Notes: generated by a model from the letters alone, not told the origin. Shown: positions 152-53,620, counted from the stretch's first letter. The stretch is 64,000 bases of DNA from an uncultured Spartobacteria bacterium (GCA_903929475.1 CAIYUV010000074.1:1-64000); one strand, 5' to 3'. Numbers and translations are program-made.

Positions 152-1270
152 ATCGCTCATGATTTCAACAACATCCTCGTCGGCATCATCGGCTACGCGG
201 AACTCGCCCGCGCGCGACTGCCCTCCGCGCATCCCGTCGGCGACGATCTCTCCCACGTCCTCAGCGCGGCGAATCGAGCGCGCGAACTCGTCCGGCAAAT
301 TCTCACCTTCTCCCGCAAGCGACCGCCGGAGAAACAAATCATCGCACTAGCGCCCATCGTTCGCGACACGCTCAAGCTCCTCCGGGCAACGTTGCCAGCC
401 GCCATCGAGATTCGCGCGGAGCTGGAGCCCGGCGTCGGCAGCATTTTTGCCGACCCCACGCAGCTCCATCAGGCGCTGTTGAATCTGGCGACGAACGGCG
501 CACACGCCATCGGCGGTGCGCCCGGTCGGCTCGTTGTTTCGCTCGAGGAAATGGTCGCGACACCAGCGCTGCTCGAAGCACATCCTTGTCTCGCCAACGG
601 ACGCTGGGCCTGCCTTAGCGTGGCTGACACTGGACGCGGCATGGACGCCGAGACGCTCCAGCACGTATTCGAGCCGTTCTTTACCACCAAGGATTTGGGC
701 GAAGGAACAGGCATCGGTCTCGCTGTCGTTCACGGCATCATCGAGGCGCACAGCGGAATCATCAGCGTCGAGAGCGCGCTCGGCAGCGGTTCTACATTTC
801 GCATTTTTCTCCCGCTCGCCAGCGAGCCAGTCGGTCCTCCTCCGCGTGAAGAAAATACGCCCGAGGGTAACGGACGGCACGTCCTCGTCGTGGATGATGA
901 AGCGATGGTCTGCGAAGTCGCGCGCACATTTCTCGAAGAACTGGGCTACCAAATCACCACCTGTCAGAGCCCGGAGCGTGCGCTCGAAGAATTCACCGCC
1001 GCGCCTGCTAAATACGGCGCCCTCCTCACGGATCTAAACATGCCGCACCTCAATGGTCTCGAACTCATCCGCCGTATTCGCGCCAACTGCAATGTAGGCG
1101 CTGCGCTGCCTTGCGTTCTTTTCACCGGCTTTGTCGGCAGTGCCGCGACCGAGCAGGAAGCCATGGAACTCGGACTCCGCGAAATCCTCAACAAACCTTT
1201 CACGCGCCACAGCCTCGGCCTCGCCATCCACCGCGCAATCATAGGCGCACCCGGTGCGTTGAACGTTTAG
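137..1270 (+). CDS. Hybrid sensor histidine kinase, C-terminal part (5' truncated at junction)
   Basis: Recognisable kinase sequence starts at 137 with [14 protein letters not shown], the H-box of the HisKA family carrying the phospho-accepting His. It continues through an HATPase_c domain (DTGRGMD, then [18 protein letters not shown]) and ends with a receiver domain ([11 protein letters not shown], with the acceptor Asp in LLTDLNMP). Family members normally have PAS or other sensor domains before the H-box; these are missing because upstream sequence switches to a reversed SecA fragment. The ATG at 68 opens the frame but translates that foreign sequence, so it is not accepted as a start. The stop overlaps the convergent protease gene by 4 bases. 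Expected role: autophosphorylation and phosphotransfer in a two-component pathway; the signal is unknown. Confidence 0.85.
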
Positions 1271-40741: not shown

Positions 40742-41234
40742 TTCCAGCGCCATGCCTGCGTGCGGATCGGCTTGTTTGCGTGACTTTCATATCACGACAA
40801 CGCGGAGAGCGTGTAAAATTGGACACTTCAGCGCAGGGCAAGTTTTTTTTGCAAAAAAAGTTTCCATATCCACAGCGAAAAACCTTGTTCGTGAAGTTCA
40901 CTATTTTCATGCTCCGCGACCTCCGGCGGTCACAAAAATCGCTGGTGTGAATAACTCGTGAACAACTCGGCATTTCATCAACCATGTAAAATTTCTGTCG
41001 CTTGCCCGGCGCCGGAAGTGTTGCCGAATGTTCAAAATAATGTAGTCATCGGCGTTCCACGCTCATACGTCCTGCAAAACGTTTCGCGAAAGCGTTTTGC
41101 AGGTTCATTTTTCGGCTGCCCTGCCGGAAGTGTGGAACGCACTCACGCGCCGCCGGGCTAGAAACTAGCTCAGTTCCGCGCTTGCCACTCCCCCATAACA
41201 GCCCGAAAAACGACCAAAACCGCCCTGTGGATAA
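40742..41234. other. oriC: Probable replication origin (oriC) region upstream of dnaA
   Basis: About 440 bases without genes plus the first codons of dnaA. DnaA-box-like nonamers: ATATCCACA (40866-40874, one mismatch), TGTGAATAA (40946-40954, reverse complement TTATTCACA, fits TTATNCACA) and TGTGGATAA (41226-41234, reverse complement TTATCCACA, perfect). AT-rich patches lie at 40845-40865 and 41030-41045. A long dyad (41071-41103) and a flanking inverted repeat follow. Position directly before dnaA is the usual place for oriC. No tool-based skew was run. Confidence 0.6.
41071..41103. repeat. Nested dyad symmetry element upstream of dnaA
   Basis: CCTGCAAAACG (41071-41081) and CGTTTTGCAGG (41093-41103) are exact 11-base inverted arms. 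Inside them sits a second palindrome, TTTCGCGAAA (41082-41091). Outside them, GCGTTCCAC (41052-41060) and GTGGAACGC (41132-41140) form a third inverted pair almost centred on the same point. GCCGGAAGTGT also occurs twice (about 41011 and 41123) as a direct repeat. Confidence 0.85.
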
Positions 41235-42594
41235 AATTCCCACTACCCAAAATCTCGCGCCCGTCTGGGCCGAAATCGCTTCTGCGCTCCGCGCAGAGGT
41301 TTCTGCTGATATTTTCGACCGTTGGTTCAAGGAAACCGAACTCGTCGAACTCAGTTCCGAACATCTCACGCTTCGTGTCCCGAATGAGATCTACCGCTAC
41401 TGGATTGAAGATAATTACTTCGACCCGCTGCGTGCCGCCGCGTTGTTCACATTAAAGAGCGCCCGCGAAATCCGTTTCGTAAGCGCTGGTCTCGCCCAAG
41501 TGCCGCACCATGAGCCGGAGCGTGTAAAACCGCGCGTGCAACTCACGGAGGAGGAATCCGACGAGAAAGCCGTGGCCAACGGACTCAATCCGAAAAACAG
41601 CTTCGATAACTTTGTCGTCGGCTCGAACAACGAATTCGCCGCCGCCGCATGCCGCGCAGTCTCGGAAAATCCCGGCAAAGTCTATAACCCGCTTTTTTTC
41701 TACGGCGGAGTGGGGCTCGGCAAAACGCATCTCATGCACGCCATCGGTCATCACCTGATGGCCGCGCGGAAGATGAAAGTCTGCTATGTCACGAGCGAAA
41801 AATTCACCAATGAGTTCATTGATGCGATTCAGAACGGAACGCTCGTGAAATTCCGCAAGCGCTACCGCCAGGTGGACGTGCTGCTCATTGACGACATCCA
41901 CTTTTTCGCCGGCAAGGAGCGCTCTCAGGAAGAGTTCTTCCACACGTTCAACACACTGTTCGACGGACACAAACAGATCGTCCTCAGTTCCGACCGTCCG
42001 CCTGCTGAAATCGGCAACCTCGAACCACGACTCGTTTCGCGCTTTGAATGGGGGCTCACCGCCGAGTTGCAAGCGCCCGATGTCGAAACGCGCATGGCCA
42101 TCTTGCAAAAGAAAGCGGCCAGCATCGGCGCGATCATCGAGCCGGAGATCATCCAGTTTGTAGCCGAGCGCATCCGCACAAACATCCGCCGACTCGAAGG
42201 CGCGCTCATGCGAGTCGCGTCATTCCGTTCGCTCAGCGGCACCAAGCCTTCGCAAGAACGCATCGAGATTTTGCTCAAAGATCTCCTGCAGGAAGAAGCG
42301 CGCCGCACCGTCAGCGTGGAGCAAATCCAAAAACGCGTGGCAGAACACTTCGACGTTCGTTTCGCAGACATGACCAGCAAACGACGCCCAAACAGCATCG
42401 CCTTCCCGCGCCAGATCGCCATGTTCCTCACGCGCGAGCTGACGAAAATGTCGCTCTGCGAAATTGGCGACGCCTTCGGTGGCCGCGACCACGGCACCGT
42501 CCTCCACGCACACCGCCTGGTGAAAGACCGCATGGGCGACGACGACAAAGTGAAGCAAGTCGTCAAATTCCTGAACGATCAGTTGCAGCGCTAA
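41182..42594 (+). CDS. dnaA: Chromosomal replication initiator protein DnaA
   Basis: 470 residues, typical length. It binds DnaA boxes and opens the origin. Domain I: LAPVWAEIASALRAEVSADI, FDRWFKETELVEL. AAA+ core: NPKNSFDNFVVGSNNEFAAA, Walker A GGVGLGKTHLMHAIGHHLM, Walker B DVLLIDDIHFFAGKERSQEE, sensor LSSDRPPAEIGNLEPRLVSRF in shorter form SSDRPPAEIGNLEPRLVSR. Domain IV: SKRRPNSIAFPRQIAMFL and GDAFGGRDHGTVLHAHR (DnaA signature). The start at 41182 gives a Pro/Asn/Lys-rich lead-in; a GTG at 41227 would begin closer to the family's first helix. A perfect DnaA box overlaps these first codons, an autoregulatory arrangement. Confidence 0.97.
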   Translation: MPLPHNSPKNDQNRPVDKIPTTQNLAPVWAEIASALRAEVSADIFDRWFKETELVELSSEHLTLRVPNEIYRYWIEDNYFDPLRAAALFTLKSAREIRFVSAGLAQVPHHEPERVKPRVQLTEEESDEKAVANGLNPKNSFDNFVVGSNNEFAAAACRAVSENPGKVYNPLFFYGGVGLGKTHLMHAIGHHLMAARKMKVCYVTSEKFTNEFIDAIQNGTLVKFRKRYRQVDVLLIDDIHFFAGKERSQEEFFHTFNTLFDGHKQIVLSSDRPPAEIGNLEPRLVSRFEWGLTAELQAPDVETRMAILQKKAASIGAIIEPEIIQFVAERIRTNIRRLEGALMRVASFRSLSGTKPSQERIEILLKDLLQEEARRTVSVEQIQKRVAEHFDVRFADMTSKRRPNSIAFPRQIAMFLTRELTKMSLCEIGDAFGGRDHGTVLHAHRLVKDRMGDDDKVKQVVKFLNDQLQR

Positions 42595-42736
42595 AAAGCG
42601 GTATCGCCACGGGGGCTGGAACCAACTGAGTCTCGGCTGATGGAGCAGCAGATGTTTTCTGCGTGCATTGGCCGTGTTGCAGGCATACAAGCCGCGCCTC
42701 TCGCGCATGGGCGCGAAAAAACTCATCTTATTTGCC

Positions 42737-45019
42737 ATGAAACGCCGTCCACTTCACTCGCTCTTCGCGCCAGTCACTGCACTCTTTGTCGCCGCCGCAT
42801 TTACCGCGTGCGACAAGGCACCGGAAAAACCAACCGTGCCGCAACCCGAGCCGGCCAAGCCTGCGACGGAAAAAGCTGCCGAAGTGCCAAAGCCAGTGCC
42901 TGCACAAATTGCTCCTGCAAATCCCGCGCTGACCCAGCCAGCTGCGGAAGCGGCGAAACCGGCTGCTCAAGCTGCGGATATCGCGAAGGTGGCCTCCACA
43001 TACGGCTTCGCCGCGCGGCTTCCGAAGGACGTTGAGGGTTTTTCGGCCATCTACCATCTGCACGACATCTGGGTTTCATTCAGCAACAGCAAGTGGGCCA
43101 CGACGCTGCTCGATCTGGAACCGGTGAAGAAGGATCCCCAAATTCAAAACTCCATCAAACAGTGGAACTCACCCGAGGTTCAAAAGGTAAAGGATCTTGC
43201 CGAGGCGATTCTTGGTAATGAATTCCTCGTCGTTCAGCCCGCCGGCTTCGCCGACAAAGTCCTGCCGCTGGAGGAGGCCGTCACGAAACTTTCCGAGGCG
43301 TATATCCAGCAAGCATTTCTCGCCGGCCTGAGTGGAAAAAAGATGGGACCCAAAGAAATTCAGACCCTCATGCAGAACGCGGCGCCCGAACTCATCCCGG
43401 CTTTTGCAAAATGCGACGTGCCACCGCTTCTTTTCATCACCAAGGCTGGGCAGGCAAAGGCCGACATTGATGCCGCCTTCAAGCAACTCGCTGGATTGAT
43501 CGGCACCAAACTCCCGCCCGGCTTCGAACTGGGCAGTTTCAAGGTCGCGGACAAATACGAATTTCAAACCCTCAGCGTCGTTGCAAAAAAACTCGTCGCG
43601 CAATTTCAGGAAGTGCAGTTCGAGCTTCAACTCAAGGAACTCATCGGCGACGCGGCGAAGGCCAAGGAACTCGTCGCGCAGATTTCCGCCAAGCGTGCCG
43701 ATCTCGCGTGGGGCTGGGTGAACGACTATTTCGTCGTCTCCATCGGCGCGGATCACAGCCACGTGAAATTCGCCGCATCCGAAGCCGAGAGCGCACTTGC
43801 GATTTCCGACGTAGCCAGGCGCGCGGTGCAGTTTGCCGGGAAAAAACCGCTGGGCCTCGCGTATGTGAGCAAATTGCTCTTCGAGAAATTTGCACCGCAG
43901 ATTGAATTCGCCGACAAATTCAAGGGCATCTCCAACGAACTTCGCGGCATTCTGAAGCCGGAGCACATCACCGCCATGCAGGCCGACGTGAAAAAACTCG
44001 AAGGCAAGGCGCAGACGCTTTTCACGAGGAAATTCGACCCGATGGTCTCGGTGTCCTACGTCGAGGGCGGCATCCACGCCGACAACTTCGGTGGATTGAG
44101 GAACAGCAGCTACGATTCATCGAAGCCGCTCGGTTTCGCCAGCCTCGCCACGCCGGCGTCGTTCCTGTTTTTAGACAGCCGCGACAACGGCGCACACAGC
44201 AAGGCTGTCCTGGATTTCATCGAGGAAGGAGCATCCACCGTCTGGAGTTGGTATGAAAAATACGGGCGCACCATGGTTCCCGAGGAGGAACGCAAGGGCG
44301 CTGCGATGGTCGAAGGCATGGCGAAACCGATGGTCGAGCAGCTTTGGAAATCCGGCCGCTTGCTTGGCAAGGCGCTCGGAGATGAGTCTGCCTTCATTTT
44401 GGATCTCAATGGCAATATGCCTAAGATACCAGACACGTTCCCGCCTTTCCTCGACGGCGGAAAAATCCCGCGCATCGCGTATGTTGCCGAATTGAAGGAC
44501 CGCGCCGCGCTCGCAGAATCGTGGAAAGGCTTTTCGGGCCTCATCAAACAAATCGCCGCATTCGTCCCGCCCACGGCACTTCCGCAAGGCGTGCCGGAGC
44601 CGGTGATGACAAAGGACGGCGATGTAGAATTGCACTTCATCCCGCTGCCAGTGCCCACCGACGACTTGCTGCCGCACATCGCCATCAGCAAAGACCGCTG
44701 GATCATCAGCACGTCGCCGAGCTTCAGCAAAGAAATCGCATCCAAAGCCGCCACGAACACCGGCCCCGCGCTCGGCAACAATGATCAGGTCAATTTCAGC
44801 GCCCTCTGGGATCTCGCCGAAGTCTGGCTTGGAATCTTGGACAAAAATGCCGAACAAATGCTCGGCCCCGTCGAAGCGAAGGAATTCCAGCACGACCGTC
44901 CATTGGTCGGCACCATCCTCAAACTCGCCCGCTGCTTGAAAGGCATCGAAAGCCAGATATCCGAGGAATCAGGCCAGGCCCGCATGAGCGTGCACATCAA
45001 GGTCGAGGATTTGAAGTAG
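42737..45019 (+). CDS. Large lipoprotein of unknown function
   Basis: 760 residues from the ATG at 42737. Signal peptide with a lipobox (VAAAFTAC, Cys about residue 23), then a Pro/Ala/Glu/Lys-rich linker of about 60 residues, as in proteins that cross or reach through the periplasm. The remainder is a mixed alpha/beta protein with words such as KMGPKEIQTLMQNAAPELIP, VPPLLFITKAGQAKADIDAA, LAWGWVNDYFVVSIGADHSH, PLGFASLATPASFLFLDSRD, ESAFILDLNGNMPKIPDTFP and FSALWDLAEVWLGILDKNAE. No catalytic motif or known family is recognised; the overall style recalls DUF3352-type proteins, but weakly. It follows dnaA by 142 bases and converges with the ABC ATPase gene. Confidence 0.75.
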   Translation: MKRRPLHSLFAPVTALFVAAAFTACDKAPEKPTVPQPEPAKPATEKAAEVPKPVPAQIAPANPALTQPAAEAAKPAAQAADIAKVASTYGFAARLPKDVEGFSAIYHLHDIWVSFSNSKWATTLLDLEPVKKDPQIQNSIKQWNSPEVQKVKDLAEAILGNEFLVVQPAGFADKVLPLEEAVTKLSEAYIQQAFLAGLSGKKMGPKEIQTLMQNAAPELIPAFAKCDVPPLLFITKAGQAKADIDAAFKQLAGLIGTKLPPGFELGSFKVADKYEFQTLSVVAKKLVAQFQEVQFELQLKELIGDAAKAKELVAQISAKRADLAWGWVNDYFVVSIGADHSHVKFAASEAESALAISDVARRAVQFAGKKPLGLAYVSKLLFEKFAPQIEFADKFKGISNELRGILKPEHITAMQADVKKLEGKAQTLFTRKFDPMVSVSYVEGGIHADNFGGLRNSSYDSSKPLGFASLATPASFLFLDSRDNGAHSKAVLDFIEEGASTVWSWYEKYGRTMVPEEERKGAAMVEGMAKPMVEQLWKSGRLLGKALGDESAFILDLNGNMPKIPDTFPPFLDGGKIPRIAYVAELKDRAALAESWKGFSGLIKQIAAFVPPTALPQGVPEPVMTKDGDVELHFIPLPVPTDDLLPHIAISKDRWIISTSPSFSKEIASKAATNTGPALGNNDQVNFSALWDLAEVWLGILDKNAEQMLGPVEAKEFQHDRPLVGTILKLARCLKGIESQISEESGQARMSVHIKVEDLK

Positions 45020-45021
45020 CG

Positions 45022-45756
45022 CTAGTATCGCAGCACGCGGGCGAGGAAGTCGCGGCACTGCGCGGAGTTTGGGGCGGTGAAGACTTGCTCGGCGGTGCCG
45101 GTTTCCACGATGCGGCCGTTGGCGAGCAGTGCGACAACATCGCCGACGCGACGGGCGAAACCCATCTCGTGCGTGACGAGAACGAAATCGCGGCCTTCGC
45201 GTTTCAACTCTTCGATGACTTCGAGCACCTCCGCCGTCATCTCGGGGTCGAGCGATGAAGTCGGCTCGTCGAAGAGCAACACGCGCGGCTTCACGGCGAT
45301 GGCTCTTGCGATGGCGACGCGTTGTTTTTGTCCGCCGGAAAGTTCCGCCGGTTTTTTTCCGGCGTGTTCGCCGAGCTGGAAGCGCTTCAGCGTTTCGCTG
45401 GCGATGTCCCGTGCTTCGCCGGGCGTGTGGCCGTGAACTTTTTCGAGGGGCAGGGTGATGTTTTCCAGCGCGGTGAGGTGCGGGAATAAATTGAATGATT
45501 GAAACACCACGCCAAGCCGCCGCCGGTGGGCGCGGAGGGTTTCTTCGTTGGAGAATTCCACGCTTTCTCCATCGAGCGCGATGGTGCCGGAGTCCGGCGT
45601 CTCCAGCCCGGCGATGATGCGGAGCAGCGTGCTCTTTCCGCCGCCCGACGGGCCGATGAAGACGATGGCGCGCGCTTCGTCGAAGTCTGCGGTGATGCCG
45701 TCGAGCACCACTTTCCCGTCAAATGACTTTGCGAGCTGGTTAAGTTGCAGACGCAT
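45022..45756 (-). CDS. Polar amino acid-type ABC transporter ATP-binding protein (orphan)
   Basis: 244 residues from the ATG at 45756; upstream in-frame sequence is antisense to the acetyltransferase and is rejected. Walker A GPSGGGKSTLLRIIAGLE, Q-loop FQSFNLFPHLTALENI, signature LSGGQKQRVAIARAIAV, Walker B VLLFDEPTSSLDPEM and H-loop LVTHEMGFARRVGDVVAL are all intact. The sequence resembles GlnQ/HisP (PAAT family). No permease or periplasmic binding protein is adjacent, so its membrane partner must be elsewhere, or it serves another role. It overlaps the upstream acetyltransferase gene by 17 bases. Confidence 0.9.
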   Translation of the reverse strand: MRLQLNQLAKSFDGKVVLDGITADFDEARAIVFIGPSGGGKSTLLRIIAGLETPDSGTIALDGESVEFSNEETLRAHRRRLGVVFQSFNLFPHLTALENITLPLEKVHGHTPGEARDIASETLKRFQLGEHAGKKPAELSGGQKQRVAIARAIAVKPRVLLFDEPTSSLDPEMTAEVLEVIEELKREGRDFVLVTHEMGFARRVGDVVALLANGRIVETGTAEQVFTAPNSAQCRDFLARVLRY

Positions 45757-46678: not shown

Positions 46679-48817
46679 ATGTCCGAACCACAAACTGTCG
46701 AAGCCGCACGAGCCCGCATCCAGCGGCTCGTGGATGAAATAGCGGCCCTGAGCAAAGGCGAGATGCGCTCGGAGGAATACTACCAGCAATTCCTCACGCG
46801 CGCCGTCACTGCTTGTGATGGTCGTGGTGGCGCCGTGTGGCTCGTCGGCCAGCGCAGTGCCGAGGGGAAGGGCGAGTTTCAGCTCGCCGCCGCAGTGGAT
46901 TTGGAATCATCGCTTTTTCAAAATGATGAACAGCAGCGCGGCGTGCTTTTGCGCTCGCTCGGCGAAGTCGTTCAAAGCAAAAAGCCGCTCGTCCTTTCCG
47001 CCGACAACCAGACCGGCCCGCAGCCCGGCTCTTTGCAGGCGCAGCTTTCGCAGATGGCTCCGCAGCCGTCCGCTCCCTCGCCCAACCGCACGCCTTTCCC
47101 CTTTGTCCACGTCCCGCTATTTTTGAAGGAGCAGGTGCTCGGCGTCCTTCAAATATGGCTACAGCCCTACGTCACGCGCGAAAATTACGCCGAGTTCGCC
47201 ACGTTCCTCACGCAACTCGCATCGCACGTCGAACAGTTCTTCCAGTCGCGCCGGCTCGGCAATCTCGTCGTCGAAAACCAACGCCTCCAGCATCTGTTGA
47301 AATTCATCAGTGACCTCACCGGGTCGCTCGATCCTCAGGAGGTCGCCCGCCTCGCCGCGAATTACGCGCGCGACCTGCTCGGCTGCGAACGTTGCGCCGT
47401 GGCGCAGATTCGCGGGATATCGTGGGAGACGCTCGCGATTTCCGGCCAGGAGGTCGTGGAAAAAAAGAGCACGATGGTGAAGGCGATGACGGCATTCATC
47501 GCAGCACACACGCCAGGCCATGCGGTCGCTGTCGCTCATGAGGGTGGAGCAACGGAGCAGAAGGCGTGGATTCTTGCGCTCACCAAAAAGGAGCTGCTCG
47601 AACTCGCTGAAAACGGTGCGCCCGCCGACGATTCCCGCGCGCTCGCGCTGCGCCCGAACGGGCCGACAACCGCGGTGGATGCCGAGTTCTTCGAGTCAAG
47701 CCAGGTCACATCCACGCTCCTCGTCCAGCTTCTCGATGCTGAGAAGCAAATCGTCGGTGCACTGCTCGCCGAGAGCACGGTGGAATCTTTCTTTTCACCC
47801 GCCGCCGGGGCGGTGGAGATTCCATCGAGCCACCGCCTCGCCGAGTGGCTCGCCACGAACACGGGCCGTGCCCTTCGCGGTGCGCGCGACCATCGCGAAC
47901 TGCCTTTTCTTTTCGCCACCAAACGCCTGCGCGACACGAAGCGCCGGCTCACGGGCAGCGACCGCGCGCGGCATCGCATCAAGCTAATCGTCTTCCTCGT
48001 GTTGCTTTGCGGTGTGTTGTTTTTCCCGTGGATGGAGGAGATCGAGAGCGACTGCACGCTCGTCCCGCACCAGCGCGTGAAAATCGTCCCCGAAATCTCC
48101 GGGCGCATCGAGGAGGTTTTTGTCCGCGAGGGACAGGCTGTAAAAAAAGGAGACGCGATTGCGCGGCTCGACACCTCGACCCTGGAAACTCAACTCAAAG
48201 GTGCGCTCGAGGAAAAACTCGGTGCGACTGCGGAAGCGGAGCGATTCCGCGGGCTCAATGAACCCGCTGGCATGGAGATCGCGCTCACCCGAGTGCGCGC
48301 CGCCGAGGCAAAGGCGCAGGGGCTTCAGCGCGACATCACATCTGCGACGTTGCGCAGCCCGATAGATGGCGTCGTCCTCACCAAGGACATCGAGCTTTCA
48401 CGTGGTGTATTTGTGCAGGCAGGCGCGGATTTCACCGTCGTAGGCACCACCGAGTCATGGGATTTGCAGGTGCATTTGCAGGAAAAACAAGTTGGCCGTG
48501 TCGAAAAGTTGCTCGACGAAACCAAGCAGGTGCCCGTGCGCTTCATCCTCTACACGCACAACACGCACGAACTCGGCGGCGTGCTGAAGGATCGCTCGCA
48601 ACTCAGCCAGATTGCCTACCCGCACCAGCGCGAAAACGCGCTTCAGGAAAACGCCTTCATCCTCACGCTTTCTGACGTGCAAACGCCGCCTGACGTTCGC
48701 ACCGCACTGCGCCCGGATCTCACGGGGCGTGCGAGCATCACCTTTGGCCGCAAGCCGCTCATTGTTCTCTGGGCGCGTAACATCGGACAGTGGTTCCGAC
48801 TGAAGTGGGTGTGGTGA
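46679..48817 (+). CDS. GAF-domain / HlyD adaptor fusion protein
   Basis: 712 residues from the ATG at 46679 (the frame is open farther upstream, but only as antisense of the acetyltransferase). Two GAF-like domains occupy about 20-185 (GRGGAVWLVGQRS, FPFVHVPLFLKEQVLGVLQI) and 215-385 (LLKFISDLTGSLDPQEVARL, LLGCERCAVAQIRGISWETL). A single membrane segment (RIKLIVFLVLLCGVLFFPWM) is at about 437-455. A HlyD/RND-adaptor region follows: LVPHQRVKIVPEISGRIEEV, FVREGQAVKKGDAIARLDTS (lipoyl half-motif), a short helical hairpin, SATLRSPIDGVVLTKDIELS and a beta-barrel to the end. GAF is cytoplasmic and HlyD periplasmic, so it may connect a cytoplasmic signal with the export channel. First gene of the four-gene cluster; 8 bases before the next. 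Confidence 0.85.
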   Translation: MSEPQTVEAARARIQRLVDEIAALSKGEMRSEEYYQQFLTRAVTACDGRGGAVWLVGQRSAEGKGEFQLAAAVDLESSLFQNDEQQRGVLLRSLGEVVQSKKPLVLSADNQTGPQPGSLQAQLSQMAPQPSAPSPNRTPFPFVHVPLFLKEQVLGVLQIWLQPYVTRENYAEFATFLTQLASHVEQFFQSRRLGNLVVENQRLQHLLKFISDLTGSLDPQEVARLAANYARDLLGCERCAVAQIRGISWETLAISGQEVVEKKSTMVKAMTAFIAAHTPGHAVAVAHEGGATEQKAWILALTKKELLELAENGAPADDSRALALRPNGPTTAVDAEFFESSQVTSTLLVQLLDAEKQIVGALLAESTVESFFSPAAGAVEIPSSHRLAEWLATNTGRALRGARDHRELPFLFATKRLRDTKRRLTGSDRARHRIKLIVFLVLLCGVLFFPWMEEIESDCTLVPHQRVKIVPEISGRIEEVFVREGQAVKKGDAIARLDTSTLETQLKGALEEKLGATAEAERFRGLNEPAGMEIALTRVRAAEAKAQGLQRDITSATLRSPIDGVVLTKDIELSRGVFVQAGADFTVVGTTESWDLQVHLQEKQVGRVEKLLDETKQVPVRFILYTHNTHELGGVLKDRSQLSQIAYPHQRENALQENAFILTLSDVQTPPDVRTALRPDLTGRASITFGRKPLIVLWARNIGQWFRLKWVW

Positions 48818-48825
48818 CTTTTTCC

Positions 48826-49539
48826 ATGAAAACAAAAATATTTCTCTCCATCGTTCTGTCCCTCGCCACGCTACGCGCCGATCCCGTGCAAGGCGTTGTG
48901 TTTCCGATCAAGACCGTGCAGGTGAGTTCGCCGGTGCTGCAGGAAGTCATCACCGAAGTCCTCGTCGAGGAAGGCACCGAGGTGCGCGAAGGGCAAATCA
49001 TCGTCCAGCTACGTAACGAGCGCGAAAAGCTCGACGTAGAGTTGTCGAAAAAACTGATCGAATTGAAGACGTTCATCGCTCGCGGGCAGGAAAAACTCTA
49101 CAAGGAAAAAATGGGCAGCGAAGAAAAGGCGCTCGAAGCAAAAACCGACCTCGAGCTTGCCACCCTGCAGCAGTCGTCCAAGGAAATCGCACTCCGGGAA
49201 AAAACCGTCCGAGCGCCCATCAGCGGCGTCGTGGTGAAAAAATACAAGGAGGCTGGTGAATCCATAGACCGCGCGGAAAAACTCATGGACATCGTGAACA
49301 TCGAGACAGTCTATGTGCAGTTCTATCTCGCGCCTTCACTGCGCAAATCCGTGCAGCAGGATCAAGCCATCCGCGTGCGCATCCTCGATCTCGAGGGAGC
49401 GGAGTTCGACGGCAAGGTGACATTCATTGACCCGCGCAACGACGCAGCGAGCGGTCTCGTCCGTGTGAAGGCGCAGATTGAAAACAAGGATCGCCGCATC
49501 AAGCCCGGCATGAAGGGCAGTGCGGAATTCGGGAAATGA
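48826..49539 (+). CDS. Exported HlyD-family periplasmic adaptor (short)
   Basis: 237 residues from the ATG at 48826 before a signal peptide (KTKIFLSIVLSLATLRADPV). Lipoyl/hairpin/beta-barrel order: VSSPVLQEVITEVLVEEGTE, VREGQIIVQLRNEREKLDVE, coiled coil around RGQEKLYKEKMGSEEKALEA, VRAPISGVVVKKYKEAGESI, DIVNIETVYVQFYLAPSLRK and KPGMKGSAEFG. It lacks an N-terminal membrane helix, unlike classic HlyD, so it is likely free in the periplasm or held by partners. Second gene of the cluster, between the GAF-HlyD fusion and the M50 gene. Confidence 0.88.
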   Translation: MKTKIFLSIVLSLATLRADPVQGVVFPIKTVQVSSPVLQEVITEVLVEEGTEVREGQIIVQLRNEREKLDVELSKKLIELKTFIARGQEKLYKEKMGSEEKALEAKTDLELATLQQSSKEIALREKTVRAPISGVVVKKYKEAGESIDRAEKLMDIVNIETVYVQFYLAPSLRKSVQQDQAIRVRILDLEGAEFDGKVTFIDPRNDAASGLVRVKAQIENKDRRIKPGMKGSAEFGK

Positions 49540-49556
49540 TTTCGGTTTCCTGAACC

Positions 49557-51770
49557 ATGGCTGATCTCGCGCCAGTCGCTCTCGAAAAGGCCGCAACTCC
49601 GCAGGAAAACGTCGTCCTGCCCGCGTTGCGCGGGGATCTTTCGATCAGCAAGCAATACTACGAGGGACGCACCTACTATGTCGTCAAAGATCCCATCTCG
49701 CTGCAATACTTCCGGCTTACTGCGGAGGATTACGCGCTCGCCTCGCTTTTCAATGGCAGGCGCACGTTCGGGCAGATTCGCGACGAGTGGGCGAAGGGGC
49801 ATCCTCACCTCCGGCTGGATTTCACAACCGACGAATTGAACGAGCGTGTGCTCAAATTCGCCAACGATCTTGCGCTGCTGCAATTTCTCAGCGTGCAAGG
49901 GCAGCGCGTGAAAGCGCGGCTCGATGCTGCGAAGCGACACAAGGCAAAAAAGGGCGGGCTCTACGCTTTTACAAACCAGGTCTTTTTTTTCCGCAAAGCG
50001 CTCTTTGACCCGGATCGCCTCTTCGCACGCATGGCGAAACCGCTGTGGTGGATTTGGACGAAGGCCACGTTTTGGATTTCGTGGGCGGTTATCGCGCTCG
50101 GGGCTGCGGTGTTCATCTACAACGCCGACCATCTCGATCAGGCGCTCGCGAATCTTTTCAACTGGCACAACATCGCGCTGATGTGGGTGACGACGATCCT
50201 CATCAAGAGCATCCACGAACTCGGCCACGGGCTGACGTGCAAACATTTCGGCGGCGAGGTGCATGAAGTCGGCGTGATGACGATGGTCTTCACGCCATAT
50301 TTTTTTGTGAACGTGAGCGACTGCTGGACAATGCCCGACCGCAGGCACCGGATGCTTGTTTCCTTCGCGGGCATCTACGTCGAACTCGTTTTTGCCGCGC
50401 TCGCTGCGTTCCTCTGGGTCGTCATCGCGCCGGGCTGGTTCAAGGATTTCCTGTTCAACATCATCATCGTCTCCAGCGTCAGCACGCTGCTTTTCAATGC
50501 GAATCCGCTCATGCGTTTTGACGGTTACTATATCATGATTGACGCCACCGAGACGCCGAACCTCCAGCAAAAGTCGCGTGCGCTTGTGCAAAACACAGTC
50601 ACGCACTGGCTCTTTGGAAAAGGCACGAAAGGCGAACTGCTCTCGCGGATGCCGCTGCCCAAAAAGCGGCTGCTCCTCTTTTACACCTACGCCGTGCTCT
50701 CGTGGCTCTACGGCTACTACGTCATTTACAAGCTGATCGTCTTCATGGAGCCGCATCTCAAGCCGCTCGGTCTCGAAGGCCTCACCAATTGGTTTGCTTT
50801 CCTTGCTTTGACGGGATGGGTGGTCGTGCCACTCTGGCATTTCGTGCAACATCTTCATCTCACTACTGACGACCTCAAACCGGGCGGACGCTGGCGGCGC
50901 ATTGGATGGATATTCGGCGTCCCGCTCGCGGCGTTCATCGGATTTTGTTTTGTGCCCGTGGAAAAGGAAGTAACCCGACACAGCGCAGTCGAACTCGCAG
51001 ATCCAGAAATCGTCCACCCGGATACCGCCGGTTTCATCAGCGAGGTGCGCGTGCGCGAAGGGCAGATCGTGAAGCCGGGCGATGTGCTCGGCGTGCTCGA
51101 CAATCGCGAGATGAAACAGAACCTCGCCGTGCAGGAGCAGACCGTCCATGAATACGAATTGCGTATCCAGCAGGCACTGGGTCTTGGCAAGACGGAGGAA
51201 ATCCGCGTCCTCGAAAACATGCTCGCCGGTGCGAAGAATACGCGAGCCAAACTCCAGCAGGACGTGAACCGCCTCGAACTTCGCGCCAAGACAGGCGGCG
51301 TCATTCTTTCCCGCGATCTCGGACTACGCATCGGCCAGCTCTTGCGTCCGCCACAGGATGCGTTTTGTGAAATCGGATCGCTCAATCCGATGAAGATCAA
51401 AGTCCCCCTCGATGAAAAAGAAGTTCGCTACGTGAAGCCTGGCAACCCCGTCACGCTCATCGCGGACGCTTTTCCAGGAATAAAATTCCAAGGTGTTGTG
51501 GCGGGCCAGCCGATGGAACTGGAAGATCACAATTTTCCACCGGCCTTCAGCAAGGATCGCGGCGGCGACGTTGCCACTTATCACGATGCCAGCGGACACG
51601 ACAAACTCCTCGACCACGTCTATGTCATCACTGTCGAAGTGCAGAACCCTGAAAATCTCCTTCGCTACGGCATGACCGCGCGCGCAAAAATCGCCACCGG
51701 CAAACGCCCCTTTGGCGGAATCGTTCTTCAATGGATCACCGACTTAATCAGCCTCGACTACCGTTTCTAA
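49557..51770 (+). CDS. PqqD/RRE-like - M50 site-2 metalloprotease - HlyD fusion
   Basis: 737 residues. About 22-125: a PqqD-like winged domain (ISKQYYEGRTYYVVKDPISL, QYFRLTAEDYALASLFNGRR, TFGQIRDEW), the RiPP recognition element fold. About 150-450: a polytopic M50 protease with HELGH at 220-224 in the second helix, VFTPYFFVNVSDCWTMPDRR, and the third ligand Asp322 in NPLMRFDGYY, so the zinc site is complete. From about 455: a membrane helix (IGWIFGVPLAAFIGFCFVPV), then a HlyD adaptor with VHPDTAGFISEVRVREGQIV, hairpin ending RLELRAKTGGVI, and barrel. It probably cleaves or handles a peptide at the inner membrane and passes it to a TolC channel. Its stop overlaps the TolC start (TAATG). Confidence 0.85.
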   Translation: MADLAPVALEKAATPQENVVLPALRGDLSISKQYYEGRTYYVVKDPISLQYFRLTAEDYALASLFNGRRTFGQIRDEWAKGHPHLRLDFTTDELNERVLKFANDLALLQFLSVQGQRVKARLDAAKRHKAKKGGLYAFTNQVFFFRKALFDPDRLFARMAKPLWWIWTKATFWISWAVIALGAAVFIYNADHLDQALANLFNWHNIALMWVTTILIKSIHELGHGLTCKHFGGEVHEVGVMTMVFTPYFFVNVSDCWTMPDRRHRMLVSFAGIYVELVFAALAAFLWVVIAPGWFKDFLFNIIIVSSVSTLLFNANPLMRFDGYYIMIDATETPNLQQKSRALVQNTVTHWLFGKGTKGELLSRMPLPKKRLLLFYTYAVLSWLYGYYVIYKLIVFMEPHLKPLGLEGLTNWFAFLALTGWVVVPLWHFVQHLHLTTDDLKPGGRWRRIGWIFGVPLAAFIGFCFVPVEKEVTRHSAVELADPEIVHPDTAGFISEVRVREGQIVKPGDVLGVLDNREMKQNLAVQEQTVHEYELRIQQALGLGKTEEIRVLENMLAGAKNTRAKLQQDVNRLELRAKTGGVILSRDLGLRIGQLLRPPQDAFCEIGSLNPMKIKVPLDEKEVRYVKPGNPVTLIADAFPGIKFQGVVAGQPMELEDHNFPPAFSKDRGGDVATYHDASGHDKLLDHVYVITVEVQNPENLLRYGMTARAKIATGKRPFGGIVLQWITDLISLDYRF

Positions 51771-53620
51771 TGACCGCTCGCTGGCTGCTCCCACTTCTCG
51801 CCGCACCCGTGCTCCTCGCCGCCTACGGCGACGCGAAACCCGACAAGCGGATGCCGTCATTCAAAATCACCATGCCTGCGGTGATCGAACTTTCCACCGA
51901 GGGCGCCGCGCAGTCCGACGCGGACATTCACGTCGCGAAAAAGAAGGATTTCTTCGGCCCGGGCAGCGTCACACAGACGATCACACTCAGCGATGCGATC
52001 CAATGGGCGTTGAAAAACAATCTCGACTCGAAGGTCGAGGAAGTCGGTGTGCTCGTCGAGGAGGCGCGATTGCGCAATTCCTACGGCGAATTCGATCCCG
52101 TCTTCAGTTTCAGCGTAGTCCGCTCGGACGCACAGAATCCGGATAGTCGCAACAACATCAGTTCCGCAGACGCCGTTGCGCAGCTTGAGTCCATTCAGGC
52201 GCAGATTGACGCGATCAACAACAACACGGATGCGCTCCACACCAACATCAACGCTATCCGCGAAGCGCGCGGCCTGCCTCCGCTGACATTTAGCACCACT
52301 CCGCTCGCCGCAGGTCTGGGTAGCAACCAGCCTATCATCTTCGACCAGCAGACAGATCATGGCGAGGTCAGCATTCAGGCACGTTCGCCCTTCGGCACAG
52401 TCATCCGTGCGGGTGTCCGCACCACGAGATTGCGCAGCACATTCGACGGCGACACGCGCACGATTACTCCCACATATCTGGCTTCCACGACGTTCGAGGG
52501 CCGCCATCCTTTGCTCAAGGATTTTGGCTTTGACGCCAGCCTCGCCGATATCCGCATCTCGCGAAAAACACGCGACTCGCAGGAGCTGACGTGGAAATTC
52601 CGCCTCGAAGCCACGTTGCAAAACGTCGTCTCCAACTACTACGAGGTCCTGCTCGGCATCACTGATTTGGAAAACAAAGGCGACGCCATCACCGCCGGGT
52701 TGGGTCTCGTTGCGCAGAGCAAGCGCCGCAAGGAACTCGGCTTCCTTTCTCCCTACGAAGTGCAGCAGGCGCAGGTGCAACTGTCCTTTGATCGTGAAAA
52801 TCTCCTCCTTGCTAAAAACTTTTTTCTCGACCGCCAATTTTCTCTCAAACGCCTCATTCTTCCCGGATATAAAAGCGAAGATCGCAGCGTTTACTTACCC
52901 GTCGAGATGCCCTCACTGAAAGTGCCCGTGCTCGACCGCGACGCACTGCTCTCGATGGCATTTGAAAAGCGGCTCGATTTCAAAGCGGCGCTCATCGCCG
53001 CCGAGTCCGAGGATATCCGCATAAAATTCGCGAAGAACCAGCGACTCCCGCAGCTCGACATCGTCGGCAGCTACGGCTGGAGCGGACTCGACACCGGCGG
53101 TTATCAGGACGCGTGGAACCGCATGACACACAGCCAGGCCCCGCAGTGGCAGCTCGGCGTCAGTGGAAGTTTCCCCATTGGAGGCATACAGCCGCGTGCA
53201 CAGTTGGACGCAGCCAAAGCGCGCAAACAGCAGGCGCTCCTCCGCATCAAGGCCGCCGAACTCGAAATCGGCCTGAGCGTCGAGCGCGCCATCGAACTCA
53301 TCCGCACCAACGAGCAACGGCTCAAAACAGCCCGGTTCACGAAGACCACCGCCGACGAAGCCGTGCGCGTCGGTTTCCGCCGGATGGAAGAGGGGCTCAT
53401 CAGCAACTTCGACCTCATCGAGCAACAGCGGAAACTCTACGAAGCACGCACCCGTGAACTCAGCGCCATTTTCGATTTGAACAAAAGCATCACCCAACTC
53501 TGGCTCGCCACCGGCACCGTCCTGGAAAATCTTGGCATCACCTTCGCCGATGCGCCCTCCTCCAAGCCCAAGTCAGCACCCGCACCCGCTCCCAAGTCCG
53601 CGACCACAAAGAAAAAGTAG
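51770..53620 (+). CDS. TolC-family outer-membrane efflux channel
   Basis: 616 residues from the ATG at 51770 (TAATG overlap with the M50 stop), just before a signal peptide (TARWLLPLLAAPVLLAAYGD). About 75-600 is the TolC repeat fold: TITLSDAIQWALKNNLDSKV, RLRNSYGEFDPVFSFSVVRS, FRLEATLQNVVSNYYEVLLG, KELGFLSPYEVQQAQVQLSF, then in the second half LDFKAALIAAESEDIRIKFA, QRLPQLDIVGSYGWSGLDTG and GFRRMEEGLISNFDLIEQQR. The C-terminus is a Pro/Ala/Lys-rich tail. It closes an envelope-spanning set with the two adaptor proteins and the protease-adaptor. The threonine aldolase-like gene begins 6 bases downstream. Confidence 0.92.
   Translation: MTARWLLPLLAAPVLLAAYGDAKPDKRMPSFKITMPAVIELSTEGAAQSDADIHVAKKKDFFGPGSVTQTITLSDAIQWALKNNLDSKVEEVGVLVEEARLRNSYGEFDPVFSFSVVRSDAQNPDSRNNISSADAVAQLESIQAQIDAINNNTDALHTNINAIREARGLPPLTFSTTPLAAGLGSNQPIIFDQQTDHGEVSIQARSPFGTVIRAGVRTTRLRSTFDGDTRTITPTYLASTTFEGRHPLLKDFGFDASLADIRISRKTRDSQELTWKFRLEATLQNVVSNYYEVLLGITDLENKGDAITAGLGLVAQSKRRKELGFLSPYEVQQAQVQLSFDRENLLLAKNFFLDRQFSLKRLILPGYKSEDRSVYLPVEMPSLKVPVLDRDALLSMAFEKRLDFKAALIAAESEDIRIKFAKNQRLPQLDIVGSYGWSGLDTGGYQDAWNRMTHSQAPQWQLGVSGSFPIGGIQPRAQLDAAKARKQQALLRIKAAELEIGLSVERAIELIRTNEQRLKTARFTKTTADEAVRVGFRRMEEGLISNFDLIEQQRKLYEARTRELSAIFDLNKSITQLWLATGTVLENLGITFADAPSSKPKSAPAPAPKSATTKKK

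Follow-up and report, generated by a model that had tools for sequence, protein, structure and literature searches.

How would an envelope system composed of three HlyD adaptor domains and an outer-membrane channel move a substrate out of the cell when no pump is encoded with it, and what would that substrate be? The question is raised by a four-gene unit in a 64,000-nucleotide stretch of DNA (hereafter the window, contig C74) from a 4.5 Mb Chthoniobacteraceae-like MAG (Verrucomicrobiota) in 295 contigs; among named genomes, those nearest to it are MAGs carrying the label Chthoniobacteraceae, Chthoniobacter, Verrucomicrobiaceae or Prosthecobacter. A sequence-only reading had described four tightly packed genes at positions 46679-53620, and all of them were found, in the order GAF-HlyD, HlyD, RRE-M50-HlyD and TolC (Table 1). 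The gaps between them measure 8 and 17 nt and the fusion and TolC genes overlap by 1 nt, therefore leaving no room for a precursor gene within the unit. HlyD and TolC are export parts, and it is probable that the four genes form a secretion channel in which a leader-reading protease stands in place of the pump.

Table 1. Features of the four-gene unit and its upstream flank, in window coordinates.
Feature	Position	Strand	Basis or remark
DnaA gene	41182-42594	+	
781-residue protein	42674-45019	+	no Pfam match
GlnQ-like ABC ATPase	45022-45756	-	Pfam; divergent, upstream of the unit beyond a GNAT gene
GAF-HlyD, 712 aa	46679..48817	+	Pfam GAF over cut-off; cytosolic GAF residues 33-186
GAF-HlyD topology	one TM about residues 435-452, periplasmic HlyD 467-625	+	Pfam
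HlyD adaptor with N-terminal signal sequence, 237 aa	48826..49539	+	HlyD_D23 4e-20, RND_mfp 1.6e-34, both over cut-off
RRE-M50-HlyD fusion, 737 aa	49557..51770	+	
RRE/PqqD-like domain of the fusion, residues 13-127, three strands then helical bundle	49593..49937	+	AlphaFold, Foldseek
M50 active site: K217-HELGH (220-224) and NANPLMRFDG (314-323, Asp322)	50205..50525	+	homologue alignment
C-terminal HlyD/adaptor domain of the fusion, residues 484-712	51006..51692	+	Pfam; Foldseek
TolC-family outer-membrane channel, 616 aa	51770..53620	+	OEP 8.7e-30

Among the profile matches that the sequence-only reading had anticipated, HlyD was recovered over cut-off, as were GAF and OEP (HlyD_D23/HlyD_3 for the adaptors), M50 fell slightly below its cut-off (E 2.5e-5), and the Pfam HMM search returned no PqqD match for the fusion; the TolC gene product reached 2.7e-20 against the type_I_sec_TolC model, under that model's cut-off. 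Support for the proposed PqqD/RRE-like N-terminal domain came from structure. An AlphaFold model of the 115 N-terminal residues, obtained from a 20-sequence alignment (pLDDT 88), presents a three-stranded sheet and a winged-helix bundle like those of solved RREs. Its best PDB matches in Foldseek were the TbiB1 RRE with leader peptide, PqqD, lasso-peptide B1 and the sactipeptide enzyme CteB, with probabilities of 0.95-1.00, modest E-values (7e-3 upward) and one methyltransferase scoring among them. On this model, the N-terminal domain of the fusion is predicted to have an RRE-like fold. As for the protease, the HELGH motif and the catalytic Asp322 were both located at the residues claimed earlier, and K217, H220, E221, H224, N314, N316, P317, L318, D322 and G323 were invariant among 20 homologues sharing 23-73% identity. 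The HExxH motif and the distal NxxP...D lie within the membrane domain, as in peptidase family M50. Moreover, HExxH was retained in all 80 homologous Verrucomicrobiota loci read (up to 20 kb each) and in eight plasmid homologues, as was the distal Asp, with small surrounding changes in five of these, and the M50 site is intact. The C-terminal part of the fusion resembles MacA, MexA and AcrA (Foldseek, E down to 3e-12).

HlyD and TolC proteins are commonly paired with ABC, RND or MFS pumps, sometimes unlinked, and the unit could be a conventional assembly of the tripartite efflux or type I kind, its pump being encoded elsewhere or lost. The GlnQ-like ABC ATPase encoded divergently upstream in the window favors this possibility; however, the orthologous loci fetched showed no ABC ATPase in their surroundings, and one occurs within 6 kb in only 8 of the 80 homologous loci, so that the efflux pump was rejected for want of a conserved ABC gene. 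In the window flanks, Pfam detected neither an RND nor an MFS pump gene, which sets the locus apart from RND/MFS tripartite efflux pumps, and the RRE-M50 fusion is conserved at the place where a pump would be expected. An ordinary pump system is consequently considered highly improbable, and the earlier claim of three HlyD domains plus TolC without RND, ABC or MFS pump was upheld, no pump being conserved nearby. The orthologous loci fetched retained the four genes as the only conserved unit, with differing flanks, except that in one genome (G014) no GAF-HlyD gene neighbors the other three, an HlyD frame of 692 codons being located on a different contig; in a second one (G005), the contig stops within the fusion gene. 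More broadly, a large HlyD gene immediately precedes the RRE-M50 gene in 69/80 homologous loci, and TolC was detected in 32/80 with a weak profile. The observations that could have overturned the earlier reading, namely loss of the RRE fold and of the zinc ligands or a regularly adjacent pump, were not made: the fold is present, the ligands are retained, and an ABC gene is not a regular neighbor in relatives.

A module of this type was published in 2015 by Kamneva, Poudel and Ward (PMC4452313) from Verrucomicrobia and other phyla, as a SecA_DEAD/type-I-related set comprising an HlyD protein with weak M50 similarity, GAF-HlyD, HlyD and sometimes OEP, accompanied by a secondary SecA and likewise lacking an ABC transporter, which also argues against the ordinary-pump possibility. 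In that paper, the M50 protein was proposed as a possible pore and the broader role was called completely unknown, and the portion of its text available mentions neither an RRE domain nor a leader or a cargo (PMC4452313). Methylobacterium extorquens AM1 is among the bacteria with such an operon, META1p2402-2399 (PMC4452313). Thus, the earlier statement that no function had been described holds for the role but not for the module type itself. The window variant differs from the published module in lacking the secondary SecA_DEAD, both at the locus and in the whole genome: a truncated SecA-like ATPase is carried by 21/80 homologous loci, whereas the whole-genome search found a single SecA here (a 988-codon frame on contig C140), and a dedicated SecA elsewhere in this genome was rejected on that account. 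The window locus therefore belongs to a known module, of which it is a variant lacking this SecA. The available text of a tripartite-efflux review (PMC8277102) does not mention M50-HlyD proteins.

The identity of the cargo was suggested by the neighbors of homologous systems on plasmids. A tblastn search for plasmids carrying the fusion returned 78 records, and in six of the loci read, the fusion, HlyD and mostly TolC genes adjoin a gene with an annotation of Ig-like, LEPR-XLL, LamG or DUF4347 and a length of approximately 7 to 32 kb. All six giant products start with an LExR motif: IEPRILLSA in Thalassospira, LESRQLFDGA in E. coli, LEPRMLFDGA in Kosakonia, LEPRFMFDAA in Azospirillum, LEPRVLLNA in Methylosinus and MEPRVLLSA in Pontibrevibacter. 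The E. coli system (L065, NZ_CP081687.1), with its 13 kb Ig-like gene, is plasmid-borne, and among 5,426 complete E. coli genomes its fusion gene is present in 24, in most cases on a plasmid. The Ig-like protein RSP, encoded by IncHI plasmids, was considered as a characterised relative and rejected, since it is reported to be exported through the plasmid's type IV system (PMC6764697).

The LEPR-XLL / LEPR-8K domain (NCBIfam NF012209) has the LExR motif as well, likewise at the N-terminus of very large proteins; it is an annotation model only, and the FDGA and RIAPA variants extend beyond it. Because NF012209 alone gave one protein over cut-off in this genome and loose matches in control genomes, a wider leader profile was built. 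In the 80 Verrucomicrobiota loci, a regular expression found 17 N-terminal motif cases against one in the reversed and one in the swapped control, and the profile, partly trained on sequences near the loci, gave 30 matches at ≥8 bits, about 19 of them not training rows, against one reversed and one shuffled sequence. Once a second profile, directed at FDGA leaders, was added, a leader gene was found in 28/80 loci, nearly always less than 8 kb from the fusion gene, a count that leaves out a spurious-looking match at L144. Examples at the N-termini of giant proteins beside homologous loci include LEPRILLSA, LEDRILFDGA and LESRIAPA. The motif was seen in open frames whose lengths run from 5,000 to more than 20,000 codons, including those of 22,555 codons (G014:C91 near 56688) and 20,466 codons (G051:C142 near 82030), which are among the largest bacterial reading frames. 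The window itself contains no LExR gene, and among the orthologous loci only that of G016 has an adjacent one.

At the genome level, the RRE-M50 gene was found in 62 of 289 Verrucomicrobiota genomes and the leader profile in 28, 27 of which also have RRE-M50. When the genomes that had supplied profile rows were excluded, RRE-M50 was present in 14/15 leader genomes (Fisher p = 5e-11, a value inflated by shared ancestry, to which the RRE-M50 tree answers in part). The sole motif-positive genome without RRE-M50 (G302) was set aside, since its match lies near the frame end with 67 residues left and is probably due to chance. In a congener (G007) carrying both leader subtypes, the RRE-M50 gene was not detected, reflecting either an assembly gap or a real loss, and two genomes (G024 and G034) have the machine and no leader at the threshold used.

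The association is also supported by the way in which leader and machine vary. On the tree of the RRE-M50 region, in which the window row was labelled from its genome rather than its locus, the leader subtype changes 4 times, against 16.6 in shuffles. The FDGA subtype forms a single clade (support 100) joining enterobacterial and Azospirillum plasmids with distant Verrucomicrobiota, and the remaining alphaproteobacterial systems are placed with the LSA types. Across phyla, the subtype of the leader tracks the RRE-M50 tree. Within the family two systems occur, the window type and a paralogue, and among the loci read, which represent a subset of the matches, genomes in which the window type is the sole system (G008, G016) showed RIAPA leaders only, those with only the paralogue (G003, G004, G015) showed LCSA-type leaders and no RIAPA, and those with both showed RIAPA and sometimes also LSA-type leaders. 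The present genome has both systems, with seven RIAPA-type proteins and one LSA-type. The domains recognized in its leader proteins are FG-GAP, PATR, DUF5649 or cyclophilin, as expected of surface or secreted proteins, and most of the leaders, judged by a simple measure of hydropathy, are without the hydrophobic core typical of a Sec signal.

The sequence-only reading had assigned a small peptide to the system as cargo, a view compatible with RiPP-type maturation, in which the RRE would take a small precursor, M50 would remove its leader and the mature peptide would leave through TolC. The RRE fold is in line with it, and residues 48-423 of the fusion, its RRE-like plus M50 region, align end to end with the daptide metalloprotease model NF041824 (9e-50) and match YydH/LiaK NF058609 (2e-12). 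Tandem small LExR proteins of 110-220 codons near a homologous system point the same way; they were seen in one genus as the sole small candidate cargo (L111 1932-2760, L112 2080-2922, L113 1602-2433 and L116 17062-18020) and bear the leader variant LESRELFAAAAVPHH. However, the daptide score of 169.8 bits remains far from the 300-bit cut-off and that of YydH/LiaK is also below its curated cut-off, the fusion differs from both families by its HlyD domain, and most leader-bearing proteins have hundreds to thousands of residues. The proposed search of neighboring loci for a conserved small precursor or radical SAM enzyme found neither beside the orthologues, on which ground a RiPP cluster was rejected. 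Maturation of a small peptide is accordingly rated unlikely, and the peptide cargo was replaced by the large, often giant, surface-type proteins on which LExR occurs.

Regulated intramembrane proteolysis is a frequent role of M50 enzymes, and the fusion could instead be a site-2 protease that cuts a membrane-bound regulator, with HlyD and TolC as scaffold or sensor and GAF as input. The presence of the GAF domain and of an ECF sigma-factor gene in two paralogous loci would suit such signalling, but neither a sigma nor an anti-sigma gene was observed next to the window-type orthologues, and the RRE domain, TolC and the co-occurrence of leaders would be left unexplained, making this alternative very unlikely. 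As a separate observation, in these paralogous systems (L056 5029-6837 and L058 near 12361, minus strand), the frame with the ECF sigma-factor domain runs in frame into a LEARRVPSA leader-like stretch.

Considering the leader distribution together with the domains, the system probably exports large surface proteins bearing an N-terminal LExR leader, which the RRE would bind and M50 would cleave before exit through TolC. The logic of capture by the RRE, cleavage by M50 and release through TolC, already put forward by the sequence-only reading, is plausible with this cargo. We infer the following route. The cytosolic RRE domain would bind the leader, mainly of the IE-x-LE[SA]R-IAPA type in this genome, and the M50 membrane domain would hold and cut it, perhaps just past its small-residue end (APA, LSA, FDGA). 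The cargo would then cross a periplasmic funnel made of the three HlyD domains and leave through TolC, while a cytosolic signal may be sensed through the GAF domain. In related loci, the truncated SecA-like ATPase would be the probable motor; in the window variant, which has no motor gene, the candidates are the housekeeping SecA, an ATPase encoded elsewhere and an ion gradient.

This route shares HlyD adaptors and TolC with type I secretion (HlyB-HlyD-TolC), some members of which typically export very large surface proteins such as LapA, and differs from it in the lack of a conserved ABC exporter. Classic type I cargo carries a C-terminal signal, whereas the candidate tag is N-terminal here. 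A wider proposal, for and against which we see equal grounds, is that these loci represent a distinct class of Gram-negative secretion in which the RRE reads the N-terminal LExR leader of large to giant surface proteins and the fused M50 both removes the leader and, through its membrane domain, takes the place of an ABC pump. Leader and reader would have co-diversified and been transferred jointly from phylum to phylum, enterobacterial plasmids being among the recipients.

The link between leader and cargo is the new part, suggested by comparative genomics, and no description of it was found in the open-access literature. The 2015 description of the module, as far as its available text goes, left substrate and role completely unknown (PMC4452313), and with a leader-cargo link that question becomes open to direct test. 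The link also suggests an exit route for some of the largest bacterial proteins and, if true, leader recognition by RREs, known from small modified peptides, would extend to the export of whole proteins.
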